A stretch of 64,000 nucleotides of DNA from Fuerstiella sp. Lineage in GTDB: Bacteria; Planctomycetota; Planctomycetia; Planctomycetales; Planctomycetaceae. Location: positions 1 to 64,000 of the forward strand of contig JALHMY010000040.1 of assembly GCA_022843805.1 (NCBI GenBank), given 5' to 3'. The notes below the pieces were generated by a model, which was given only the letters and a program-made list of their open reading frames with translations, was not told the origin of the DNA and did not search any database. Of the stretch, positions 4,166-25,884 are shown in pieces. Position 1 is the stretch's first letter. The number at the start of each line of letters is the position of its first letter. A program made the translations under genes and the position numbers.

Positions 4166-4675
4166 ACCTCCCCTCCCCGCAATCAACTCCCCTCCCGCGC
4201 AGCGAAGCGAAGTGGGAGGGGTCGGCCGTCAGGCCGGGGGAGGGCCCGCCGCGTGTTGCACTCAACGCCGCCCCAATCACACCCGCGTCCCGCAGTTCAC
4301 TCGGCCCCCTCCCGAGCTTGCTTCGCTCGCTCGACCTCCCCCAGCTTCGCTGGGAGAGGAGGGTTAAAAACCCCAGCTTCGCTGGGAGAGGGGGGACTTA
4401 CAAAAACTCCCCTCCCCGCAATCAACCTCCCCTCCCGCGCAGCGAAGCGAAGTGGGAGGGGTCGGCCGTCAGGCCGGGGGAGGGCCCGCCGCGTGTTGCA
4501 CTCAACGCCGCCCCAATAACACCCGCGTCCCGCAGTTGCCCCGGCCCCCTCCCGATCTTGCTATCGCTCGCTCGACCTCCCCCAGCTTCGCTGGGAGAGG
4601 GGGGTTAAAACCCCAGCTTCGCTGGGAGAGGGGGGGTTAAAACCCCAGCTTCGCTGGGAGTGGAGTACTTACAAA
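4166..4675. repeat. tandem 240-bp GC-rich repeat pair plus short reiterations
   Basis: Positions about 4168-4400 and 4407-4640 are nearly identical with an offset of 240 bp. Each unit has a CTCCCCTCCCCGCAATCAAC start, an AGCGAAGCGAAGTGGGAGGG segment, a CCCGCCGCGTGTTGCACTC middle and a CCCAGCTTCGCTGGGAGAGG hairpin. The last hairpin is reiterated about every 33 bp (two extra copies at 4612-4670). The block fills the space between the TPR gene and the acetylesterase gene. Open frames across it are low-complexity and not credible genes. The same modules, inverted, are at 1-131. Confidence 0.8.
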
Positions 4676-6693: not shown

Positions 6694-8651
6694 TCTACGA
6701 ACGTTCGTGGGAGGCGGTTGCGTTTTTTGCTGTCTTCGTCGGTTTTACGCTGGGGCTCAGTTTCTGGCTGGGAGGTAAGGCGAAGTCCTCGGCGGGCTAT
6801 TTTGCAGCCCATGGTCAGATTCCATGGTTTGTCAACGGCATTGCTTTTGCCGGCGACTATCTGTCTGCAGCTTCGTTCCTCGGAATCTGTGGAATGATTG
6901 CCTTTTATGGATACGACGGATTTCTTTATTCCATTGGATATCTTGCCGGCTGGATCGTGGCCCTGTTCGTCGTCGCGGAGCCGATGAAAAGACTGGGGAG
7001 ATTCACCTTTGCCGATGCTCTTGATGCAAAATTCAACTCACGCGGAATCAAGCTGGCTGCAGGTATCAGCACTCTGGCAGTCAGTTTGTTCTATCTGATT
7101 CCACAAATGGTTGGTGCCGGAGTTCTCGTCCAGCCTCTGCTCGGACTCGACCACTGGATGGGTGTTGTGATGGTCGGAGCGGTCGTGATCATGATTGTGG
7201 TGACCGCTGGTATGGTCTCAACAACCTGGGTGCAGTTTCTTAAGGGTTCACTGCTTGTGTTCTTCAGCGCCATCCTGACCTGGATGATTCTGGACCGTGG
7301 TTTTACGGTGGAGGAAGGCGGAAATGACGGTCATAAATTTCGAACGCTGCTGGTCGTTTCCGCGGCCATTGCCCCGGAAGCAGTCGGAACCATCGCCGAT
7401 GAGTTTGACGTCATCCCCCCTGATGACGTCTGGAAGGCAACCAAACAACCATTTGTTCGCCTAAAGGAGCGAAAGTCGGGCCGAACAACGGTTTGGCACG
7501 TGCAGGATTCTGATAAAGATGGTCAGGTTTCTCTAAAGGAAACCCAGACGGTCACCAAATCCAAAGACGGAAAAACGCTCGTCAACGGTGAGCCTCGAGG
7601 GACAAAAAAAGGCGAACCGGAACTCTTCACGGTTGGATATGTTAGTCGACTTCCGGACGGAAAATCGTCAACCGGCAGCCTGACACTGGCGTCGTTCTTC
7701 AGTACTCTGCAGGATAGTGAAGTCGTGCTTTGGCGTGAAGAAAAGGTGGCAGAATCGGATGGGCAGATCACCACTGTCTATTATCAAAAACCGACCCCAG
7801 GTGCGCAGATTCTGCGTCCAGGTGAGCATCCCATTTTTAAAGGGATCCGCAGTGATCGCTGGTTTGACCGAATTGACTTTATCTCTCTGATGCTTGCCCT
7901 GTTCTGCGGCACCGCTTCGCTCCCACATATTTTGATTCGATACTACACGGTGAAAGATGAAAGCAGTGCCCGAAAAAGCACCATTGTGGGGATCGCCAGT
8001 ATTGGTTTCTTCTATGTACTGACCCTGTACATGGGGCTGGGAGCGATGACCAGCGGTGCACTGGACGTTACGGACAACAACATGGCCGCTCCGCTGCTTG
8101 CGAAAAGCATGAATACCTGGCTGTTTGCGGCCATTTCCGCCATCGCCTTTACAACAGTCCTGGGCACTGTCAGTGGGCTTATTCTGGCCTCGGCAGGCGC
8201 CGTTACGCACGATCTTCTGGGCAGTGCGTTTGGATTTCAGATGAACGATGATGAAAAAGTGCGGATTGCGAAACTGTCATCTGTTGGAGTGGGAGCGATT
8301 GCCATTATTCTGGGAATCGTGTTCCGCGATATGAACGTCAGTTTCCTTGTAGGCTGGGCATTCAGTGTCGCAGCTTCGGCGAACCTGCCTTCTCTTGTGA
8401 TGATCCTTTTCTGGAACGGTGTCACTCGTCAGGGGGTTATTTCCGCAATCATTGTTGGCATGGTAAGTTCACTGAGCTGGGTACTTCTAAGCGGTGAAAC
8501 TTATGCCAAGGTGTATGGACTGAATGCTGCAGATTCTGTTCTGCCATTCAGCCAGCCGGGGCTGATTACCATTCCGCTGGGATTCCTGACGCTGATCGTT
8601 GTGAGTCTGGCGACCCGTACGGATACAAATGACCGAAACATCCCGGCGTGA
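6690..8651 (+). CDS. ActP-like sodium:solute symporter with EF-hand-containing insert
   Basis: 653 residues of the SSS family. N-terminal helices carry GYFAAHGQIPWFVNGIAFAG and ASFLGICGMIAFYGYDGF; the C-terminal half has GTASLPHILIRYYTVKDE and typical late helices. ActP of E. coli is about 549 residues. The excess is a soluble insert at about residues 205-392 between two membrane blocks. Within it D273-E284 reads DSDKDGQVSLKE, a perfect 12-residue EF-hand loop (DxDxDGxVxxxE), followed by charged, beta-like sequence. The substrate could be acetate or another small monocarboxylate. The gene is coupled to the DUF485 gene by ATGA. No acetyl-CoA synthetase gene is in view. Confidence 0.85.
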   Translation: MIYERSWEAVAFFAVFVGFTLGLSFWLGGKAKSSAGYFAAHGQIPWFVNGIAFAGDYLSAASFLGICGMIAFYGYDGFLYSIGYLAGWIVALFVVAEPMKRLGRFTFADALDAKFNSRGIKLAAGISTLAVSLFYLIPQMVGAGVLVQPLLGLDHWMGVVMVGAVVIMIVVTAGMVSTTWVQFLKGSLLVFFSAILTWMILDRGFTVEEGGNDGHKFRTLLVVSAAIAPEAVGTIADEFDVIPPDDVWKATKQPFVRLKERKSGRTTVWHVQDSDKDGQVSLKETQTVTKSKDGKTLVNGEPRGTKKGEPELFTVGYVSRLPDGKSSTGSLTLASFFSTLQDSEVVLWREEKVAESDGQITTVYYQKPTPGAQILRPGEHPIFKGIRSDRWFDRIDFISLMLALFCGTASLPHILIRYYTVKDESSARKSTIVGIASIGFFYVLTLYMGLGAMTSGALDVTDNNMAAPLLAKSMNTWLFAAISAIAFTTVLGTVSGLILASAGAVTHDLLGSAFGFQMNDDEKVRIAKLSSVGVGAIAIILGIVFRDMNVSFLVGWAFSVAASANLPSLVMILFWNGVTRQGVISAIIVGMVSSLSWVLLSGETYAKVYGLNAADSVLPFSQPGLITIPLGFLTLIVVSLATRTDTNDRNIPA

Positions 8652-8684
8652 TCCCTTCCGGCAGACCAGAAAAGCCCGTGAGCG

Positions 8685-8752
8685 ACGTCGTCCCTGCCAT
8701 CTGTGAAAATCTGTGCCATCTGTGGTTGAATGCATTCTGTTTTTGACCCCTG
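8685..8752. repeat. dispersed ATCTGTG-type intergenic motif
   Basis: The sequence CCATCTGTGAAAATCTGTG followed by CCATCTGTGGTT lies between two genes. Related strings occur at about 31205-31265 and, as an inverted pair, at 50713-50804. It appears to be a short dispersed repeat rather than a coding or regulatory element. Confidence 0.45.
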
Positions 8753-8753
8753 A

Positions 8754-10913
<2,160 letters not shown>

Positions 10914-14629: not shown

Positions 14630-14691
14630 CAAACAGCCGGTTTTGGCAGCTTTTGGGCCGTGGGCAAGTGAAAACTATCCTTCACCGCGAC

Positions 14692-14905
14692 AAACGGGAG
14701 GGCGAAGCTCCTGCTGAGCCGTGAAAAGCAAACGGGAGGGCGAAGCTCCTGCTGAGCCGTGAAAAGCAAACGGGAGGGCGAAGCTCCTGCTGAGCCGTTA
14801 GAAGCTCGGCTCGGCAGGAGCCTCGCCCTCCCGGTCGTTAGAAGCTCGGCAGGAGCCTCGCCCTCCCGGTCGTTAGAAGCTCGGCAGGAGCCTCGCCCTC
14901 CCGGT
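14692..14905. repeat. symmetric array: three direct and three inverted copies of a ~38-bp repeat
   Basis: Three head-to-tail copies with a 38-bp period contain CGGGAGGGCGAAGCTCCTGC (starting about 14694, 14732 and 14770). They are followed by three copies of the reverse complement containing GCAGGAGCCTCGCCCTCCCG. The two halves differ only at a few positions, so the whole block could form one long hairpin with a centre near 14800. It lies between convergent genes. It is not a CRISPR array because no unique spacers separate the repeats. Confidence 0.85.
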
Positions 14906-15003
14906 AGACAAAGACCCGGCAAATGAACAAAAAAGGCCGGTGGCGAAGTTTGATCGCCACCGTCCTTTGATTTTTTGACTGACCAGCCGGCCAGTTTTTC
15001 TGC

Positions 15004-16938
15004 TTAGCCGAACAGCCCGCCGATCATTTCCAGAATTCCCGACTTTGCCTTGTCGGTTTGTGTCCACAGCCACATCGTGCGCACAAGCTCAACTCCAATG
15101 ACCGCCGACACCATTGAAAGCAGTGTGCCCATACCAATCATCACTTTGGTTCCGGTGCCCCAGTCTGCTTCCGCCCGAGAAGCTCCGCGTCCGGCAGCCG
15201 GTGCAGCAAAGCCACTTCCGGTTCCCTCTTCGTCATCTTCTTCGTCGAAGTCCTCAGCGTAACCTTCTTCGTCTTCAAGTGTTTCTTCGAATTCCTCATC
15301 CGCGAATTCTTCATTCGCGTATTCATCTTCTTCCTCTGCCGCCGCAACCTTTGCTCGACCGCGACCTGAGGCCGGGCGACCAGCATCCTCTTCTTCAAAC
15401 TTCAGAACAGAGGTGCTTGTTCCCGCATCATCATCGTCGTCATCCAGTCCGGCCAGTTCAAACTCACTCTCCCCAGCTTTACCTCGCTGGATATCAACAT
15501 GCGTGGTGAGTGCGTTGGAGTCTGCCAGAGCCGCCTTTGCGCCAGGCACCGCATTCATGGGCATTGTCCGTCCCATGTCATCTTCATCCGCATCGAGCGA
15601 AATTCCACTGTCATCGTCGAATGTCAGGGCAATTCCGCTGTCGGCAGCATCCAGCGAAATTCCGCTGTCGTCTCTCAGTGCGGCACTGCTGTCGAACCCT
15701 TCCATAGAAATTCCACTGTCATCGCTCAGCGATGTACCGCTGTCGAAGCTTTCCAGGGAAATTCCACTGTCGTCAGCGTCGAGACTGATCCCGCTGTCGA
15801 CTTCCAGGGAAACTTCACTGTCATCGGCCCGCAGTGCAACGCTGCTTCCTGTCGGAAGTGCAATTCCACTGTCCGGCTGCCGTACGGAAGATCCGGAATC
15901 AATCAGCTTGAGGTCGCTGTCGTCAGGGAACAGCGACAGAAAATCATCGTCGTCATCCGGTTTTGACGGTCCCTTTGAAGGATCTTCAATCAGCCGAATA
16001 TCGCTGTCCGTCCGGGCCTGCCCGCGGTCCACCTTAACATCACTGTCGCTGTCAACGAGCGACAACTCATCAGTGCCAGTGAGTTTTACGTCGCTGTCCG
16101 AATCAATGTCGTCAAAGAAAGATATGCCGCTGTCATCCTCGTCTTCAGCTGCCTCGTCATTCAGACGAACATCACTGTCTGAATCCGCAAGGCCCGCGGA
16201 CGCTGCCACCGTCTGGTCGTCTTCGGTACCCGAAGCGCTTCCGCTGCTATCGGAATTCAGGTCGTCAAACTCAATATCGTCAAACAGCCCCGGAGTACTG
16301 TCATCGTCGCTTTCGACGATATCAATCGCGTCAGTCAGCCGAACATCGCTGTCCGAATCCGACATCCTGGCTGGTTTCTCAAGTCCGCCGAGGTTGATGT
16401 CGGCATCTGTACGGTCGCTGGTCATGTCCACGTCACCATCTGATCCGGTGAGCTTAACGTCGCTGTCCGAATCCGAAAGCTTCACATCACTGTCAGAGTC
16501 TGAAAGCATTGCGTTACTGTCCCATCCAGTCAGATCAATATCGTCGGCCAGCGGTTCTTCCGCTTCCAGCCGGGGCCCCGAATCGCCCGACAACCGCACA
16601 TCACTGCCTTTGTTCTGCAGCTGACTGATTTCCTCGTCACTTTCTTCCGAGAACAATGCATCGTCAAAAGTCAGACGAACATCGCTGTCAGAGGAAAGCA
16701 ACTCGCCGCCATCATCATCCAGCACGGACGAAGATTCTCGCGGGATAATCGGAAAGTCGGGCGATGAGTCAGCCTGACGACTCCGAGCGAACTCCTCGAT
16801 ATCTTCTTCACGAAACTTCCAGCTGCCCCGGTCAGCGAATCCACGAACGTCACCTTCTTCGCGAAAACGCAGTAACTGATCAGTTGAGAGTCCCAGCCGT
16901 TCTGCCGCTTCGTCAAGGCTCAAGTACTTCTTGGACAT
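15004..16938 (-). CDS. tail-anchored HTH protein with acidic DSDVxL/DSGISL repeats
   Basis: 644 residues in four zones. Residues 4-52 form an excisionase/MerR-like winged HTH (YLSLDEAAERLGLSTDQLLR, GSWKFREEDIEEFARSR). Residues 83-345 contain about ten SDSDVRL or SDSDVKL repeats. Residues 350-450 contain about eight DSGISL-type repeats. Residues 500-572 are almost pure Asp/Glu. Near the C-terminus (about 597-620, VMIGMGTLLSMVSAVIGVEL) is one TM helix, followed by a short tail, so the HTH should face the cytoplasm on a membrane tether. Composition is extremely acidic, unlike neighbouring genes. DNA binding is suggested only by the HTH; targets and role are unknown. Confidence 0.75.
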   Translation of the reverse strand: MSKKYLSLDEAAERLGLSTDQLLRFREEGDVRGFADRGSWKFREEDIEEFARSRQADSSPDFPIIPRESSSVLDDDGGELLSSDSDVRLTFDDALFSEESDEEISQLQNKGSDVRLSGDSGPRLEAEEPLADDIDLTGWDSNAMLSDSDSDVKLSDSDSDVKLTGSDGDVDMTSDRTDADINLGGLEKPARMSDSDSDVRLTDAIDIVESDDDSTPGLFDDIEFDDLNSDSSGSASGTEDDQTVAASAGLADSDSDVRLNDEAAEDEDDSGISFFDDIDSDSDVKLTGTDELSLVDSDSDVKVDRGQARTDSDIRLIEDPSKGPSKPDDDDDFLSLFPDDSDLKLIDSGSSVRQPDSGIALPTGSSVALRADDSEVSLEVDSGISLDADDSGISLESFDSGTSLSDDSGISMEGFDSSAALRDDSGISLDAADSGIALTFDDDSGISLDADEDDMGRTMPMNAVPGAKAALADSNALTTHVDIQRGKAGESEFELAGLDDDDDDAGTSTSVLKFEEEDAGRPASGRGRAKVAAAEEEDEYANEEFADEEFEETLEDEEGYAEDFDEEDDEEGTGSGFAAPAAGRGASRAEADWGTGTKVMIGMGTLLSMVSAVIGVELVRTMWLWTQTDKAKSGILEMIGGLFG

Positions 16939-17388: not shown

Positions 17389-19182
17389 CTATGGCAGTCC
17401 AAACTCGGCCCTGGAAAGCGTCAGCGCCTTTGCTGCATGCTCGGCGGAAATCACCACGCACAGCTTAATTTCACTGGTATTAATCATCTCAACGTTGATC
17501 TGATTGTCCGCCAGCGTACGAAAAAGCCGGGATCCGACGTCCGTATGGCTGCGAAGCCCGATCCCCACGACACACAACTTTCCGATGTGACGATCATGAG
17601 TCACTGAAGAGCCATCATAACGTTCCAGAACTTCCCGCAAAAGCAAAAGTGAACGATCAACATCCTCAAACGGCACCGTAAACGAAATGGTGGCGCGGCC
17701 GTCGCGAGCTGCGTTCTGAACGATCATATCCACAAGCACTCCGCCTTCGGCAATTGCTGTAAATACTTCCTCCGCAATTCCGGGATCATCGGGCAGGTTG
17801 CTGATCGTCACGCGAGACTGGTCTGTATCCACATAAACATCACTGACAACAATGCTCTCCATCCCCGCCAGCTGAGATGCTATGTCCTCGGCAAGTGCCG
17901 TTCGTCCCCCATTTCCAACCACTAAAGGACGTTCCTTTGCCGCAACTCCAATCTCCGGCATGGAGGCTGTCGGACGGTGCAGTTCAAATCCATCATGAAC
18001 AGCATTCACCGCATCGTTGCACTGTGATCGGGCAATCAGCACAGAGATCTTAATTTCACTGGTTGTTACAACCTGAATATTGATGCCGCGAGCTGCAAGG
18101 ACCTGAAACATCCTTGCCGCCACACCCGTATGCGTCAGCATCCCATGTCCAACCACGGAAACCTTTGAAAGGCCGGTAGAGTGGGTGACTTCGATAGCCC
18201 CAAGCTTTTCGGCGGCCGTTTCGGCAACCTGCAATGCGCCCGGCAAATCCTCTTCCGCCACAGTAAAGGAAACGTTTGCAATCCCTTCCCTCGCGACATT
18301 CTGCACAACCATGTCGACCGGTATCTTGGCGAATGAGAGAGCAGTAAACAGATGACTCATCACTCCCGGCTGATCCGGCAAACCGATTAATCGGACCAAT
18401 GCCTCGTTTCGAACAAACGCAACGCCCGTAACGATTGATGACGACTGATCCGGTTCCGGTGCAATCAAAGTTCCCGGGCCGTCGGAAAAAGACGGACGAA
18501 CACGCAAATGCACTCGGTATTTCTTCGCAAACTCAATCGAACGGGAATGCATCACGCCCGCCCCAAGACTGGCAAGCTCAAGCATTTCGTCATACGAAAT
18601 CCGGTCAACTTTACGAGCCGAGGAGACAATTCTCGGATCCGTGGTAAACACTCCTTCAACATCCGTGTAAATCTCACATAACTCCGCATTCAGAGCGGCA
18701 GCCAGCGCCGTGGCTGTGGTATCACTTCCACCCCGCCCCAGAGTCGTGATATTGAAGTCCGAATCAACTCCCTGAAAACCAGCGGCTATTACAATGTTCC
18801 CTGCATTCAGCAAGTCCCGCATCCGCTGAGTCGAAATGCTGACAATGCGAGCCTTCGTATGTGTGGTATCCGTCAGAACCCCAATTTGAGCTCCCGTCAG
18901 ACTAATTGCCTCTTCACCAAGCTCATGCACAGCCATCGCCATCAGGGCAACGGATTCCTGCTCTCCGGTGGAAAGAAGCATGTCCATCTCTCGAGGCCTG
19001 GGCCGACTGGTGATCTCTGCCGCCAGCTCTACCAGCTCATCAGTCTTGTGTCCGCGCGCACTAACAACGACCACGACCTGATGGCCCTGTCGACGCGCTT
19101 CGATGGCCCTTCGGGCTGCTCCTCGAATTTTTTCCGCATTCGCAACACTGGTGCCACCAAATTTTTGAACGATTACCGACAC
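17389..19182 (-). CDS. lysC: aspartate kinase with four ACT domains
   Basis: 597 residues against about 400-450 in the common bacterial enzyme. The kinase domain (residues 1-250) has [37 protein letters not shown] and [17 protein letters not shown]. It makes aspartyl phosphate for Lys, Thr, Met and diaminopimelate synthesis. Four ACT repeats follow and read as a duplicated pair: [57 protein letters not shown] and [25 protein letters not shown] recurs at the second and fourth. Cyanobacterial aspartokinases have the same four-ACT arrangement. Feedback control by Lys and/or Thr is expected from the family. Confidence 0.93.
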
Positions 19183-19460: not shown

Positions 19461-21791
19461 TCAGTGCACGGCGATGAATTCGGCACTGTTTAAATATGCC
19501 CACAGCATGTCCTCCAGTGCCAGTTCCATTGCTTTTTCAACGGTCAGTGTTCTGACCAGAGTTCGCTGCCGATTGCGAAACGCCCGTTCTTCGCTCTCAG
19601 AAGGCTTGCGGGAAAGCACAGACATTGACAACTGTTCCAGACATTCGGAACCCGTTCGACGTTTTCCGGATGCGGGTACAACCAGAGACTGCACGGCAAG
19701 GGAAATTGCCTGCTCCAGGTCTTCGCCATTCATCATCATCAGAGCCTGGGAAATATTTCCATCAAACTGCAGTCGTTCGTCGTTGTCATCCGTACCAAAT
19801 GACTCAACAAACTGCTTCACCCATTCTGTACGATGCAGCGTTCCCAAAGAAGATTCCATCGGCTGACCGGAGACTGACCGAATCGCCACACGAATCGAAT
19901 CGTACAGCTGCTCAGGCACCATATATCGCGGATAAACCCGGGTAAACAACGGCTCTGTACCGGTCACAGGGTTATCCTGCTCAAATACAACCTCTCCACC
20001 CGCAAAATTCGTCGAGCTTGTTCGATGCCATGCATCTGAAAGTGCGATCCACATCATCAGTCGCTTTGTATCGTATCCCGACTGCACAAAGGCATCAGTC
20101 AGAAAACTCAGCAATTCAGGATGACTGATGGTTGCGTGAGGCCCCATGTCGTCGACCGGAGTTGTAAACCCAGCCCCAAAGAAATGGTTCCACATGCGAT
20201 TGACCATCGCTTTTGATACCTGCCGATCAGGATCCGTTGTCAGCAGCCGTACAAGCTCATCGCGTCGATCAATTCCGTCCGCTGCTGTCAGTCGATGCCC
20301 GGCAAATTCAGGCAAAACGGCTTTCTGCTGGCCTCTCAGGGTTTCATAAAAGGTCATGCCGCCCCCTGTCGAGTCGGCCAGTTTCCAAACGTCCTTCTGA
20401 GTTCCGTCGGGCAACGACACCTTGATCAGCTCACGACTGGTCTGTTTAAAGAACGCATTGAGCGCCCAAAACTGATCCTGCTTTACATCGCGTGAAAATG
20501 GATGGTCATGACACTGAGTACAGTGGACCTGTTGTCCGAAGAAGAGTCGGGCGGTTACCGCTGTCGCCGGCGTTGCCTGATCATTCAAATGTGCCAGCAA
20601 AAAGTTGGTCGCGCCATTCTGGTCGCTTCGACCTTCTGCAGCAATCAATTCTCCCACCATCCCGATCCATGGCTCATTCTTCTGAAACCGTTCCATCAGA
20701 AACGCCTGAAGCGCTGCCTGGTCAACTCCTCGAGGATTAGAACGTCCGATCAGCAGATTGACCCACATTACGCTCAAATTTTCGGCTGTTCTCGCATCTG
20801 AAAGCAGCTCTTCGACCAGCATCCTTCGGCGTCGGTCACCAGTGGCCGAGTAATATCTTCTGCATTCCTCAGCAGATGGAATCCGTCCGGCAAAAGTCAG
20901 ATAAGCCCGCCGCAGCCACTCAGCGTCTTCTGACTCAGGTGAAGCAACAACTCCATTCTCTTCCCACGATTTTGCCAGCAATTCATCGATCCGCTCAATA
21001 ATGGCATAGTCGTCTGTAGGCATATCAGGAATCGAAGACACTTCCGCGGTGATCACAGGGACCCTGGAATCTGAGCCTGACTGCGTTTCTGCACCTGAGG
21101 AGACGAGACTGTCACTGGTGTCACCATCGTCAGAGACTGCTTCAAGCGAGCTAAGCGATTCATCCGGCGACGCAGCAGCCACAGAATTCTCGCTGGCGCC
21201 GCCCTGATCGGTTCCTGCACCCGGATTCAAACCAACCTCGGATTGCGCGACGACTCCCACCGGGTTTAACGGTGCGGAATCTGATTTGTCAATCACATCC
21301 TTTGAGGAATTTCTGATATCCGCAATATCGCCCTTTCCTGCAGCTTCCTGCGCCACTTCCGAAACTGACTGCCACATCAGAATGGAAACAGTTACTAGCG
21401 CACATGCGACCGCTGATGCCGTCAAATACGAACGAAGCCCCCGGCTCCTCGACCTCGCCATTTCCATCGAACCAACGGTCGATGATAAACGGCGATTTCC
21501 AGCGGAAGACTGTCCACTGACATCAGAAACCGACTCTGAACAACTCGCAAGAAACTCTTCGTTCGCAGGAGCTCCTCGGCCTGACAAAGTCCCATGCCCG
21601 GCGTCCCATGCAAGCTGACCGTGAAGCTGAACAAATTCCACGAATAGCGCCACAAGAGCAGAGTCAAGGCGCAGAAGGTCGTTCAGACGCTTCGCGTCAT
21701 CAGACGTAAGCTGCTGATCACAATAGCGGTTTGCAAGTTCGAGCAACTCGCCGGACATCTGATTCAATGCCTCACCAGACTTACCTTTCAT
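19461..21791 (-). CDS. anti-sigma-like / DUF1549-DUF1553 fusion membrane protein
   Basis: About 776 residues. The N-terminus (residues 1-60, LLELANRYCDQQLTSDDAKR, NDLLRLDSALVALFVEFVQL) resembles the cytoplasmic region of planctomycete anti-sigma/FecR-type regulators. One TM helix follows (about 121-141, SYLTASAVACALVTVSILM), then a Ser/Asp-rich linker to about 265. The rest is DUF1549 (EWLRRAYLTFAGRIPS, VHCTQCHDHPF with CxxCH at 424-428) and DUF1553 (AMVNRMWNHFFGAGF, DMGPHATISHPELL). The ATG at 21791 overlaps the stop of the ECF sigma gene as ATGA. The CxxCH could bind heme c. I infer a trans-envelope regulator; no family with proven function covers this fusion. Confidence 0.82.
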   Translation of the reverse strand: MKGKSGEALNQMSGELLELANRYCDQQLTSDDAKRLNDLLRLDSALVALFVEFVQLHGQLAWDAGHGTLSGRGAPANEEFLASCSESVSDVSGQSSAGNRRLSSTVGSMEMARSRSRGLRSYLTASAVACALVTVSILMWQSVSEVAQEAAGKGDIADIRNSSKDVIDKSDSAPLNPVGVVAQSEVGLNPGAGTDQGGASENSVAAASPDESLSSLEAVSDDGDTSDSLVSSGAETQSGSDSRVPVITAEVSSIPDMPTDDYAIIERIDELLAKSWEENGVVASPESEDAEWLRRAYLTFAGRIPSAEECRRYYSATGDRRRRMLVEELLSDARTAENLSVMWVNLLIGRSNPRGVDQAALQAFLMERFQKNEPWIGMVGELIAAEGRSDQNGATNFLLAHLNDQATPATAVTARLFFGQQVHCTQCHDHPFSRDVKQDQFWALNAFFKQTSRELIKVSLPDGTQKDVWKLADSTGGGMTFYETLRGQQKAVLPEFAGHRLTAADGIDRRDELVRLLTTDPDRQVSKAMVNRMWNHFFGAGFTTPVDDMGPHATISHPELLSFLTDAFVQSGYDTKRLMMWIALSDAWHRTSSTNFAGGEVVFEQDNPVTGTEPLFTRVYPRYMVPEQLYDSIRVAIRSVSGQPMESSLGTLHRTEWVKQFVESFGTDDNDERLQFDGNISQALMMMNGEDLEQAISLAVQSLVVPASGKRRTGSECLEQLSMSVLSRKPSESEERAFRNRQRTLVRTLTVEKAMELALEDMLWAYLNSAEFIAVH

Positions 21792-22363
21792 GTAGCCGCT
21801 CCTGCCGAAGACAGGCGTCGACGCACACATTCCATTAATACTCGCCGTATACGGCCCAGCGACTGATAAACGGAGTTTGCAGGGCGACCGAGCTGTTCGG
21901 CAACTTCGTCCCCTGACACATTCGAATTGTATCGCCGCTGGATCAGTTCCCGATCACGTTCACGAAGCCGGTTGACACACTCCGCAAGAGCGTCACGCCG
22001 CTGATCGGCGTCGGATATCTGGTGAGCCGACTGTTCAGCAATGAGCTCTACCACATCATCTCCCAACAGCTGCAGGCGGCTGTCTCGGCGTCGTCGATAA
22101 CGAAACACTTCAAGGCGGGCAATGGCTCGCCCCCAGGCTACAAAATTTGTTCCGGGAGTAAATTGAGACCATTTACTCCAAATCACCACATTCGTCTCCT
22201 GAAGTATTTCATCGGCATCTGCCGAACTCGAAACCAGCGGCATGATGTACAAATACAGAGCCCTCTGCGCCTGGGTAAACAGGCGTATAAAATCTTCCCC
22301 AGGTCCAGCCATCGAGCTGCTCGACGAAGTCGCTGAGGTTTCTACCGGCTCCTGGTCCACCAT
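21788..22363 (-). CDS. ECF RNA polymerase sigma factor (Rhodopirellula/Verrucomicrobium type)
   Basis: About 191 residues. Region 2 is DFIRLFTQAQRALYLYIMPL, VSSSADADEILQETNVVIWS and FVAWGRAIARLEVFRYRRRR; region 4 is CVNRLRERDRELIQRRYNSN and VSGDEVAEQLGRPANSVYQS. The ATG at 22363 is used; a longer frame starts with TTG 45 bases upstream and lacks sigma-like sequence. The stop overlaps the next gene by ATGA, so the sigma factor and the anti-sigma-like DUF1549/1553 fusion are translationally coupled. That is the classical arrangement for a sigma/anti-sigma pair. Confidence 0.9.
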   Translation of the reverse strand: MVDQEPVETSATSSSSSMAGPGEDFIRLFTQAQRALYLYIMPLVSSSADADEILQETNVVIWSKWSQFTPGTNFVAWGRAIARLEVFRYRRRRDSRLQLLGDDVVELIAEQSAHQISDADQRRDALAECVNRLRERDRELIQRRYNSNVSGDEVAEQLGRPANSVYQSLGRIRRVLMECVRRRLSSAGAAT

Positions 22364-22596: not shown

Positions 22597-23898
22597 CTAA
22601 CCAATCAGTTCCTGAATCGGAGTACCACCGTTTGCCAGCTTCATCGGTCGACCACGCTTCGAGGTATGGACTGTATTGACGGGAATTCCCATGGCGTGTG
22701 CGACCGTCGCCCAAACATCTCCCGGGAGATAGCTCTTGCTTCCATCCGCGATCTGAATGCCGTCGGCGTCCGTCGCACCGATGGCCTGTCCATTCTTCAG
22801 GCCGCCTCCACCCATCATGACCGACCAGCTGGCTGCCCAGTGATCCCGGCCCACATCCTGGTTGATTCGCGGTGTTCTTCCAAACTCGCCCATCCACACC
22901 AGCACGACATCATCCAGCATTCCTCGCTGTTTCAGATCGGTGACAAGTGCCGAAATTCCCTGATCCAGCTGAGGCAGCCGCTGAGTTCTCAGAGCCTGAA
23001 ATACTCCGGCGTGCAGGTCCCAGCCACCCATATTAACTTCCACAAACGGAACTCCCGTTTGAACAAGCCTTCGGGCCATCAGCAACCCCTGACCAAAGGA
23101 ATTACGTCCGTACGCATCCTTAATCTGATCAGATTCCTTCTCCAGCCCCAGGGCAGCTTCCGTGCGAGACGAATCAAACGCCGCCATCTGAGGAGAAACC
23201 ATCAGGTTCACCGCGTTCGAGTACACATCTTTATGAGCTTCCGGCAGCTCTCCTCGCTTTGAAGCAACAAATCCGTCTTCAATCTCTTTCAGCATTGCCA
23301 GCCTTGCGGGCAGACGGCTCTTCGCTTCATCACTCGGAGAATTTCGAATTCTGCCACTGCTGTCCACCACAAACGGGGCATGAGACATTCCGAGAAAGCC
23401 GGCCTGTCCGGAACCGCCATCAATGGAAACAAAGGCCGGAATTTGAAGAGCTGTGCGCTTACGTCCAATTTCGAAGCTCACAACAGATCCAAACGCCGGA
23501 TGCACTACGGTTGGATTTGGGACGTAGCTGGTCTGCATGTAATAGCGACCCCGGCCGTGGTCCGCCTCTCGCGTGCTCATCGAACGAATGATCGACAGAT
23601 CGTTGAACACTTTAGCCGTCTCAGGCATTCCTTCAGTGATCTGAACACCGGGAGCCGCCGTATCAATCGGCTTGAACTCTCCTCCGTTCTTCGAACCTGG
23701 CTTAAGGTCCCAGATATCAATCGTCGGAGGACCTCCGCCCATCCACATCAGGATGCAGGCCTTCTGCGACGATTTCAGTGCTGCCGCATTTGCCTGAACA
23801 TGCGACAAAAAATTCACGGCGGGAATGGTTGCTGCCGCGGTCGCAACATGCTGCAGGAAATGACGCCGATTCATACCGAAGTTATTCCAGATCGCCAT
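22597..23898 (-). CDS. DUF1501 protein with twin-arginine signal
   Basis: 433 residues. The N-terminus [20 protein letters not shown] has the RRxFL pattern of Tat substrates. The DUF1501 body includes [58 protein letters not shown] and [16 protein letters not shown]1501 proteins are sulfatase/alkaline-phosphatase-like in fold and are usually encoded next to DUF1549/DUF1553 partners, but their reaction is unknown. It follows the upstream DUF1549/1553 gene by 17 bp, so they form an operon. Start ATG at 23898 has AGGAG 9 bases upstream. The sigma gene begins about 230 bp further on. Confidence 0.9.
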
Positions 23899-23915: not shown

Positions 23916-25604
23916 TTAATGCACAAATACAAACTCATTGGAATTCAGCAACGCCCAGAACAGGTCCTGATAGCCCGCCAGCTTCTTTGATGCCGGATAC
24001 GCAGCCAGCATTTTTTGTGCTCTTGACTGCTCCGCTCGATTCGGTTGGCGACTGAGTGCCGCCAGATAGAGTTCCTCAATCTTTTTGGAATCCGGCCCCG
24101 GGCGATTCAGTGTTTCAAACAAAAAACTGCCTCGCTCAATGCTGACGGCCTTATCCATCAGTTCACTGTTCATCATCATCAGAGCCTGAGTGATGGTCCC
24201 GTTGAATGTGGTCGCTTCGTCATTCTCATCGTTTTCAAACGCCACTACGAACTGCTGCATCCAGGTTCTGCGCTGAGCCTCCTGCGCGGCCCATCCACCC
24301 TGACCCGACTGATGAGCGTTTGATGCAACAATCAGCGAATCGTACAGTTGCTCCGCCTGCATCGACTTCAAATACATGTGACTAAACAAAGGCACTTCAC
24401 CGGCTGCAGGATTATCCGCGTCATTGTTCTTTCCACTCTGGCTGGACAACCCATACGCTTCCGTACTGCAAATCAAACTGATCAGCCGCTTCACATCGTA
24501 ATTGCTGGCCTGAAACTCGTCCGCCAGCCGATTCAGCACTTCCGGATGCGATGCCGGATTATGCGGGCCCATGTCGTCCACAGGCCGGGTAAACCCGTAA
24601 CCGAAAAACTGGCCCCACGTGCGATTCACAAACGCCTGAGCAATCAGCGATGCTTCTCCCTCAGACGACTCAACCATCAGCCTGGCCAGCTCCGCCCGGC
24701 GATCCGTTTCCGGACCTGGATCGATCTGCTTCCCCTGGTATTTGGGAAACGCAACCTGCATCAGACCACTGCGTTTTTCAAAATAGACTGGCCCTGAAAA
24801 ATCACGCCAGATCACTTCCGAATAGTCATCCACCATCCGCCCGGTATTGGGGTCAGCCTTCTGAACATCACGCTTATCGACCTGACGGAAAAAACTGTTA
24901 AACTCCCAGAATTGATCCTGCTGCCATTTGTTGAATGGATGGTTGTGGCATTGAGTACACTGAACCTGCATACCCAGAAACAGGCGAGTGGTCATCGCCG
25001 TCAGCTGCACTCCCTCATCCTGATTCTGCATCTGAGCAAGAATGTAGTTGACCGCACCGTTCTCTTCGAAATGCCCTTCACCGGTTACCAGATCAACAAC
25101 CGTATCCTTCCATGGTCGATTTCGACCAAAAGCCTCTCGAAAGAACTTCTCCATCCCGGCCCGACTTACTCGACGAGGCTCTCCGCGACCAATGCAGTTG
25201 TTGCTCCAAATCGTGGTGAAATTCCTGACATAATCATCACTCTCAAGCAACTCACCAATCAAAACCTGACGTTTTCGAGCATTCTCGTCAGCCACAAAGG
25301 AACGCACCTCCTGGACTGAGGGAATTCTCCCACAGATATCCAGATATACACGGCGCACCCACTCTTCATCGGAGGCAATCTCCGACGGCTTAATTTCGTT
25401 GTCCTGCCAAACCTGCCGCAACTGCTCGTTGATAAAATCGACGATCGACACCCCGCTCGCAGATGATTCCTCCGAGCCGGAGGCGGCTGCCGATTTCGAA
25501 ACAGCCCGGTCCTCTGCGACCAGCGACTCACACAATGCCACCGAACTGGTCAGAAAAACCAGTCCAATCGCAATGACAAGTCGTTTCATTTTCGAAACGT
25601 TCAT
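23916..25604 (-). CDS. DUF1549/DUF1553 cytochrome-like secreted protein
   Basis: 562 residues. Signal peptide [23 protein letters not shown]1549 carries [20 protein letters not shown] and [11 protein letters not shown] (CxxCH at 216-220). DUF1553 has [33 protein letters not shown] and [19 protein letters not shown]. Compared with the 1060-residue homologue at 36421 it lacks the PSCyt1 N-terminal cytochrome and the middle jelly-roll region. It heads an operon with the DUF1501 gene. Start ATG has AGGAG 9 bases upstream. Sequence resembles the anti-sigma fusion at 19461 closely enough to suggest paralogy. Confidence 0.88.
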
Positions 25605-25884
25605 GAATCTGAACTCCTGGATCGTTTCCGGTACGTCGAATCCTTCTGAAACCCGACTTCTGCTGTAAGTGTAACTCAGACTTGGCGATGGATGTTCGTA
25701 CGTTTTTCACTGAATTAAATCAGATTGACATATTGTATGCACGGCTGATCAGTTTCCGCCTTTTTTGCCTGCTTTTTCGAACATCCAGCGGATCCCGCCA
25801 GTCCCGCTTGCCGTCAGGGGCAAAAGCGTTAAGGTCTGCCCGCCTGAATTGACTCACATTTTTTTGTTTCCACGAAGAATCCTT

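Follow-up and report, generated by a model that had tools for sequence, protein, structure and literature searches.

Few protein families have expanded as strongly in planctomycetes as those with DUF1549, DUF1553 and DUF1501 domains, and to our knowledge none of the three domains has a known function. A locus of Fuerstiella sp. (contig JALHMY010000040.1), which lies in the 64,000-nt stretch of DNA analysed here and referred to as the window, raises the question of why a complete DUF1549/DUF1553 protein is joined through a single transmembrane helix to a cytoplasmic head encoded directly behind an ECF sigma factor gene, and of what such a protein might report to the transcription machinery.

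The sigma factor (positions 21788–22363 on the minus strand, as are all features given below; 191 aa) belongs to the TIGR02989 family, scoring 156 bits where 124.55 is the cut-off, and possesses sigma regions 2 and 4 (Sigma70_r2 and r4_2, both above the Pfam cut-off). Dozens of ECF sigma matches occur in its own genome, where it is the sole protein above the TIGR02989 cut-off. Its TGA stop codon is contained in an ATGA overlap (21788–21791) with the ATG of the fused gene (19461–21791; 776 aa), a feature that the original prediction had read correctly, coordinates included. The longest ORF of the fused gene adds 13 residues through an upstream ATG at 21830, within the sigma gene. These two genes form the end of a four-gene operon, in which they follow genes for a secreted DUF1549/DUF1553 protein (gene 1; 23916–25604; 562 aa; PSCyt2 139 bits, PSD1 123 bits) and a DUF1501 protein (22597–23898; 433 aa; Pfam DUF1501 313 bits). 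The secreted protein is a paralogue of the fused ectodomain and falls, in a tree, into the sister clade of the fused ectodomains. The DUF1501 protein carries a weak Tat signal (15.7 bits with the TAT model, below the cut-off of 16.7). Both upstream genes went unmentioned in the original prediction and are part of the conserved operon.

The layout that had been proposed for the fused protein, namely a helical N-terminus, one transmembrane helix, a linker and complete DUF1549 and DUF1553 domains with a CxxCH motif, was recovered with Pfam and in the structural model. PSCyt2, or DUF1549 (20436–20990; residues 268–452), scores 120 bits against a cut-off of 29.8, and PSD1, or DUF1553 (19575–20267; residues 509–739), 98 bits against 28.5, which places both above the Pfam gathering score. 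The predicted transmembrane helix (21369–21437; helix 116–149 in the model) is the one such segment in the protein, with a hydropathy peak at approximately residues 121–139 and a positively charged N-terminal side, from which the N-terminus is predicted to lie inside. Exactly one hydrophobic segment above threshold is found in 32 of 33 orthologues, the remaining one being slightly below it, and the head side is the more positive side in all 33, which argues for a head inside and a DUF1549/1553 domain outside. Between helix and ectodomain lies a low-complexity linker rich in Ser, Ala and Asp (21018–21365), predicted to be disordered (pLDDT under 50); Ser accounts for 19%, Ala for 12%, Val for 11% and Asp for 11% of its residues 143–258. 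A fold search of the PDB with the full-length model (mean pLDDT 65.6) gave no useful match.

Whether the head could act on the sigma factor depends first on what it is. Residues 1–66 form a conserved module with an LHGxLxW motif (21600–21782), and the AF2 model of the head contains helices at residues 4–24, 30–42 and 44–64 with a pLDDT of ~82. The original prediction called the protein anti-sigma-like and looked to a fold of this N-terminus against the sigma factor; as far as a model of the head alone can show, the outcome is in its favour, as the head matches anti-sigma chains in the PDB: RsiW (Z 6.0, rmsd 2.4, 54 residues aligned), MucA (5.7, 2.8, 54), RskA (5.4, 1.9, 53), RslA (5.2, 3.0, 54) and ChrR (3.6, 2.9, 57). 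The unrelated chain RGS7 is on par, with a Z of 6.1. A Foldseek search with the head alone also placed RsiW in the top row, at an E of 1.8 and a probability of 0.75, with no row at E < 1. The single Z values are thus modest, and each could reflect a common helical arrangement, such that class membership is supported at the level of the fold only; the weight of the match comes from recurrence of the same functional class together with genetic linkage to a sigma gene. With this reading of the model, the head is predicted to be a class I anti-sigma (ASDI) fold with a three-helix core. Helix 4 of class I anti-sigma domains contacts sigma region 2. In the present model that fourth helix is not visible, and residues 65–115 are mostly predicted to be disordered when modelled without the sigma factor. 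The modest Z values, the tie with RGS7 and the missing view of helix 4 were all counted against the explanation favoured below.

Profile searches placed the head among proteins of a known type. Pfam and NCBIfam gave nothing above cut-off on the head, one relative showing a sub-threshold zf-HC2 match (E 0.018), and a sequence search of the PDB, with the full fused-protein profile and with the head separately, found no relative. A head profile, built without sigma information, was searched across 149 genomes of the phylum, and at 29 of 30 loci a sigma gene ended 0–86 nt upstream of the head. The head occurs once in the Fuerstiella genome. All ten head proteins scanned from outside the window's family contain FecR domains, two of them with scores slightly below the curated cut-off, and several also have LamG, CBM96, serpin or beta-helix domains. 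The fused protein has no FecR domain (PF04773), as Pfam returns PSCyt2 and PSD1 only. Since the fold is joined by head homologues that lie behind sigma genes and carry FecR, the window protein is read as a putative FecR-type anti-sigma factor in which DUF1549/1553 replaces the FecR sensor. It probably works like a FecR-type regulator and is not filed as one because PF04773 is missing.

The pair can be set beside known regulators. In FecI/FecR-type systems, as in the window, the gene that follows the sigma gene encodes a protein with a homologous cytoplasmic head, one transmembrane helix and a periplasmic sensor domain, but in the window that domain is DUF1549-DUF1553 instead of FecR. Class I anti-sigma proteins such as RsiW, MucA, RskA, RslA, ChrR and RseA likewise have a three-helix head, a co-encoded ECF sigma factor and a single transmembrane helix, whereas the window head lacks their HxxxCxxC zinc motif and does not display helix 4 in the model.

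The kinship with FecR leaves two possible directions for the effect. Besides inhibiting, heads of the FecR type are able to activate their sigma factor (pro-sigma; PMC7406223), and the latter property was counted against the favoured explanation. If the head were required for sigma activity, the ectodomain would control activation rather than relieve inhibition; the head is common to FecR-domain proteins, and in E. coli the sigma factor paired with FecR cannot do without the first 59 residues of FecR (PMC7406223). On the other hand, the head model resembles the classical inhibitory domains of RsiW, MucA, RskA and RslA, and for a FecR-like protein from Leptospira the NTD by itself is enough to bind the cognate sigma factor and inhibit it (PMC13118517), so that an activating head is considered unlikely and an inhibitory one is preferred.

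Chance could also bring two such genes together, as in a genome with 95 DUF1549 domains above cut-off and dozens of ECF sigma matches a signal-anchored DUF1549/1553 protein may adjoin a sigma gene by coincidence. To judge by conservation, this is extremely improbable. A search of 99 related genomes gave 34 loci in the window's own family, the Planctomycetaceae, and in 32 of these the sigma gene is followed immediately by the gene for the fused protein, with secreted DUF1549/1553 and DUF1501 genes upstream in most cases. One of the two other loci stops at a contig edge, and one is without both the sigma factor and the fused protein. At an additional locus (G011), the secreted pair is kept while sigma factor and fused protein are both missing. 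No fused protein without a sigma gene was seen among the 34 loci and G011. The co-occurrence of homologues with an adjacent ECF gene and the presence of the same fusion in other planctomycetes, both raised with the original prediction, were thus borne out, and a similar fusion occurs in the Pirellulaceae. Chance adjacency was rejected on the conserved co-occurrence at family loci and at head-profile loci; the fold, co-variation and the same gene order in a second family also speak against it.

The same survey bears on the history of the operon. The DUF1549/1553-DUF1501 pair is also present in four further families of the class, there without this sigma factor or fused protein, so that the pair probably came first and was later joined by the sigma/fused module. 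A mirror analysis of pairwise distances covered 26 genomes. In these correlations, in which phylogeny was not modelled, r is 0.61 between sigma and head (partial value 0.58 once the secreted copy is allowed for; 0/2000 permutations), 0.53 between sigma and the fused ectodomain, and only 0.29 between sigma and DUF1501, while the secreted DUF1549/1553 protein and DUF1501 reach 0.68. The operon therefore appears as two co-varying blocks, one of sigma factor and fused protein and one of secreted copy and DUF1501. Together with the fold and the phylum-wide sigma adjacency, this co-variation lends good support to the earlier view that an anti-sigma-like N-terminus is coupled to a full DUF1549/1553 ectodomain on the other side of the membrane.

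What the ectodomain does is approached through its rate of change and its conserved residues. It could be a membrane-tethered effector, that is, mainly an enzyme or electron-transfer domain whose amount is coupled by the head to its own transcription, with no external ligand sensed. Of the 137 columns that are near-invariant in the secreted copy, the fused copy retains 92, along with CxxCHxHP, H552 and M687; such retention would be expected of a working domain. Yet, within the same set of genomes, the fused ectodomain has evolved ~2.3 times as fast as its secreted counterpart, it co-varies with the sigma factor rather than with DUF1501, and the operon already encodes a working secreted copy, all of which makes an effector role improbable in comparison with a sensory one.

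A sensory ectodomain might, in turn, respond to redox or heme state, as had been suggested. The fused protein carries the CxxCH motif of c-type cytochromes in the form of CTQCH (20508–20522; residues 424–428), a possible heme c site through which periplasmic heme or redox state might control the sigma factor. All 36 fused copies keep the motif, as do all 28 secreted ones, both histidines of CxxCHxHP are invariant, and PSCyt2 is named as a planctomycete cytochrome domain. However, equal conservation in the headless copies means that CxxCH is no sensor-specific feature, and its retention in the non-sensor partner gives no particular reason to take redox for the signal; nor did the PDB searches find a solved relative. 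As an account of the locus, redox or heme sensing by the fused ectodomain is rated less likely still than the effector role.

Further evidence on the signal comes from the Pirellulaceae, in which a TIGR02989-like sigma gene is directly followed by one for a head-TM-DUF1549/1553 protein, for example in Blastopirellula marina DSM 3645 (L173), a MAG (L172) and the f5 genomes (L065–L070). The sigma family and gene order are those of the window, but the head differs, consisting of another short segment (EDPIIDPLLEELLGxxxMPDLTARI) that is almost restricted to Pirellulaceae genomes, and the ancestry of the ectodomain is separate. In the tree, the fused ectodomains of each family cluster with the secreted copies of their own family. 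A single origin of all fusions, for which the fused copies would be held together in the tree, fails the AU test (p 6e-5), a result that gene conversion within the operon could mimic. On these sequences, the plain reading would be that fusion took place twice, separately, in one kind of operon setting, the alternative being gene conversion between neighbouring copies. Contig C27 of the Fuerstiella genome holds a possible third case, in which an ECF sigma factor of another group is followed by an 853-aa head-TM-...-DUF1549-DUF1553 protein and then by DUF1501.

Such a pattern hints that copies of a working periplasmic DUF1549/1553 protein repeatedly became an anti-sigma sensor, at least twice and perhaps three times if C27 is included, although this is put forward tentatively. 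It is with similar reserve that the state of the periplasmic DUF1549/1553 system is suggested to be measured by means of a duplicate of its own component. A sensor twice built from the family's own secreted copy fits the sensing of the same partner or substrate. It is plausible, and we infer, that the ectodomain senses whatever the DUF1549/DUF1501 system handles, as the original prediction had it. More generally, anti-sigma sensors would seem to arise through exchange of ectodomains on a conserved head, and repeatedly so for the same domain.

A candidate ECF-type promoter, CGAACAT-N16-GTTA, is located at 25672–25698, where 67 bases separate its 3′ end from the start codon (ATG) of operon gene 1. 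The corresponding motif, CGAAC[AG]-N15..18-G[GT]TA, is found upstream of gene 1 in 11 of 28 family operons, against a mean of 0.14 and a maximum of 2 in dinucleotide shuffles and 0 on the reverse strand; as the motif was derived from the same 28 operons, the comparison with shuffles is somewhat optimistic, and a fairer control is given by 19 operons or pairs of other families, lacking this sigma factor, in which the motif was absent. A genome-wide scan of the Fuerstiella genome gave 7 matches versus 9 for the backward control, which is chance level, so the regulon cannot be read from the matches. The absence of the motif from the other family operons and its own-genome matches, no commoner than the control, were likewise counted against the favoured explanation.

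That explanation, a sigma/anti-sigma pair with a periplasmic DUF1549/1553 sensor and an operon that drives its own transcription, is given as a whole a probability of roughly 0.7. The cytoplasmic three-helix head, a class I anti-sigma fold of the FecR type, would keep the TIGR02989 sigma factor tethered to the inner membrane, and the transmembrane helix and long flexible linker would join the head to the periplasmic DUF1549/DUF1553 domain, a duplicate of the secreted protein of the same operon. This ectodomain would most likely bind the target of the secreted copy, be it the DUF1501 partner or a substrate or product common to the two proteins. When occupancy changes, proteolysis or a conformational change would probably pass this on and so release the sigma factor. 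Once free, the sigma factor would use a CGAAC-N16..18-GKTA promoter to transcribe the operon that encodes it, with the DUF1549/1553 and DUF1501 genes among the targets. In this scheme, computation gives good support to the anti-sigma fold, the adjacency to a sigma gene, the co-variation, the topology, the conservation of the operon and the promoter-like motif, whereas direct binding of sigma factor and head, the direction of the effect, the ligand, the release mechanism and the use of the promoter are inferred. Through such a pair, the external state of a DUF1549/1553 system can probably be translated directly into gene expression, and the coupling of such a system to a sigma factor makes the question of DUF1549/1553 function approachable with a reporter placed behind the operon promoter.

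A link between ECF sigma factors and DUF1549/1553 proteins is not in itself new. According to the available text of a 2009 R. baltica transcriptome study (PMC2754498), Studholme in 2004 proposed the ECF sigma factor RB10049 as regulator of RB10051, a protein with PSD1 and PSCyt2, and RB10049 itself proved inducible by heat, cold and salt. The parallel to the window, going by that text, is an ECF sigma factor proposed to regulate a nearby DUF1549/1553 gene; the same text mentions neither an anti-sigma head nor a transmembrane helix for RB10051. No DUF1549/1553-type ectodomain on an anti-sigma factor was found in the literature searched, to which the planctomycete ECF surveys (Jogler 2012, Wiegand 2020) did not belong. 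DUF1549 relatives of Verrucomicrobia have been linked to carbohydrate use through context only (PMC5615132).

The original prediction also regarded DUF1549/1553 proteins as normally simple secreted partners of DUF1501. This is broadly right, but the sigma-headed operon on C27 departs from it, as do FecR anti-sigma neighbours in Rhodopirellula. In a genome that probably belongs to the Rhodopirellula group (G247), five operons (L317–L321) consist of genes for a TIGR02989-like sigma factor, a head-FecR(+LamG) anti-sigma protein, a PSCyt2-PSD1 protein and a DUF1501 protein. They share with the window the sigma family, a related head and the same DUF1549/1553 and DUF1501 partners, whereas their anti-sigma and DUF1549/1553 proteins are encoded by separate genes and those of the window are one protein. 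Because separate neighbours in G247 are fused in the window, in the manner of a Rosetta stone, DUF1549/1553 and FecR-type anti-sigma proteins would share one pathway. PSCyt1 is also present in all three of the G247 operons scanned, and their heads score 14–27 bits, below those of the window's family.

The window's own genome holds a second DUF1549/DUF1553 operon coupled to a sigma factor, located on another contig (C27; locus L313, 1274–6042). Its gene order is ECF sigma factor, 853-aa protein and DUF1501; the sigma factor belongs to a different group from that of the window, and the 853-aa protein combines an anti-sigma-like head and TM helix with DUF1549-DUF1553.

Variants of the sigma/fused-protein locus occur elsewhere. 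At L263 (934–6827, minus strand), the operon consists of secreted DUF1549/1553, DUF1501, sigma factor and a 715-aa TM protein, in that order. The DUF1549 of the TM protein is strongly degenerate, yet it retains CARCH. At L270 of genome G012 (8375–10690, plus strand), the fused gene is broken across two reading frames, with the head in one and DUF1549/1553 in the next, which is a frameshift in either the genome or the assembly.

Related operons can also carry the anti-sigma and DUF1549/1553 parts as separate genes. Five of these (L317–L321) occur in one genome, presumably of the Rhodopirellula group (G247), and contain a TIGR02989-like sigma factor, a FecR(+LamG) anti-sigma factor, PSCyt2-PSD1 and DUF1501. 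At L110 (1–1755, minus strand), the gene behind the sigma gene encodes a FecR-type anti-sigma factor whose ectodomain is a serpin domain, a protease inhibitor that may serve as sensor.

Further genes of the window, both on the minus strand, include a 597-aa aspartate kinase (17389–19182) with four ACT stretches, i.e., a doubled regulatory part, and a 644-aa protein (15004–16938) with an excisionase-like N-terminus, numerous SDSDV(K/R)L repeats and a hydrophobic segment at its C-terminal end. Repetitive intergenic sequence, perhaps a dispersed repeat, is found at about 4200–4520 and 14650–14920 of the window and at 1–510 of locus L314; its translation yields recurring units, GRGRPSGRGRARRVLHSTPPQ and similar.
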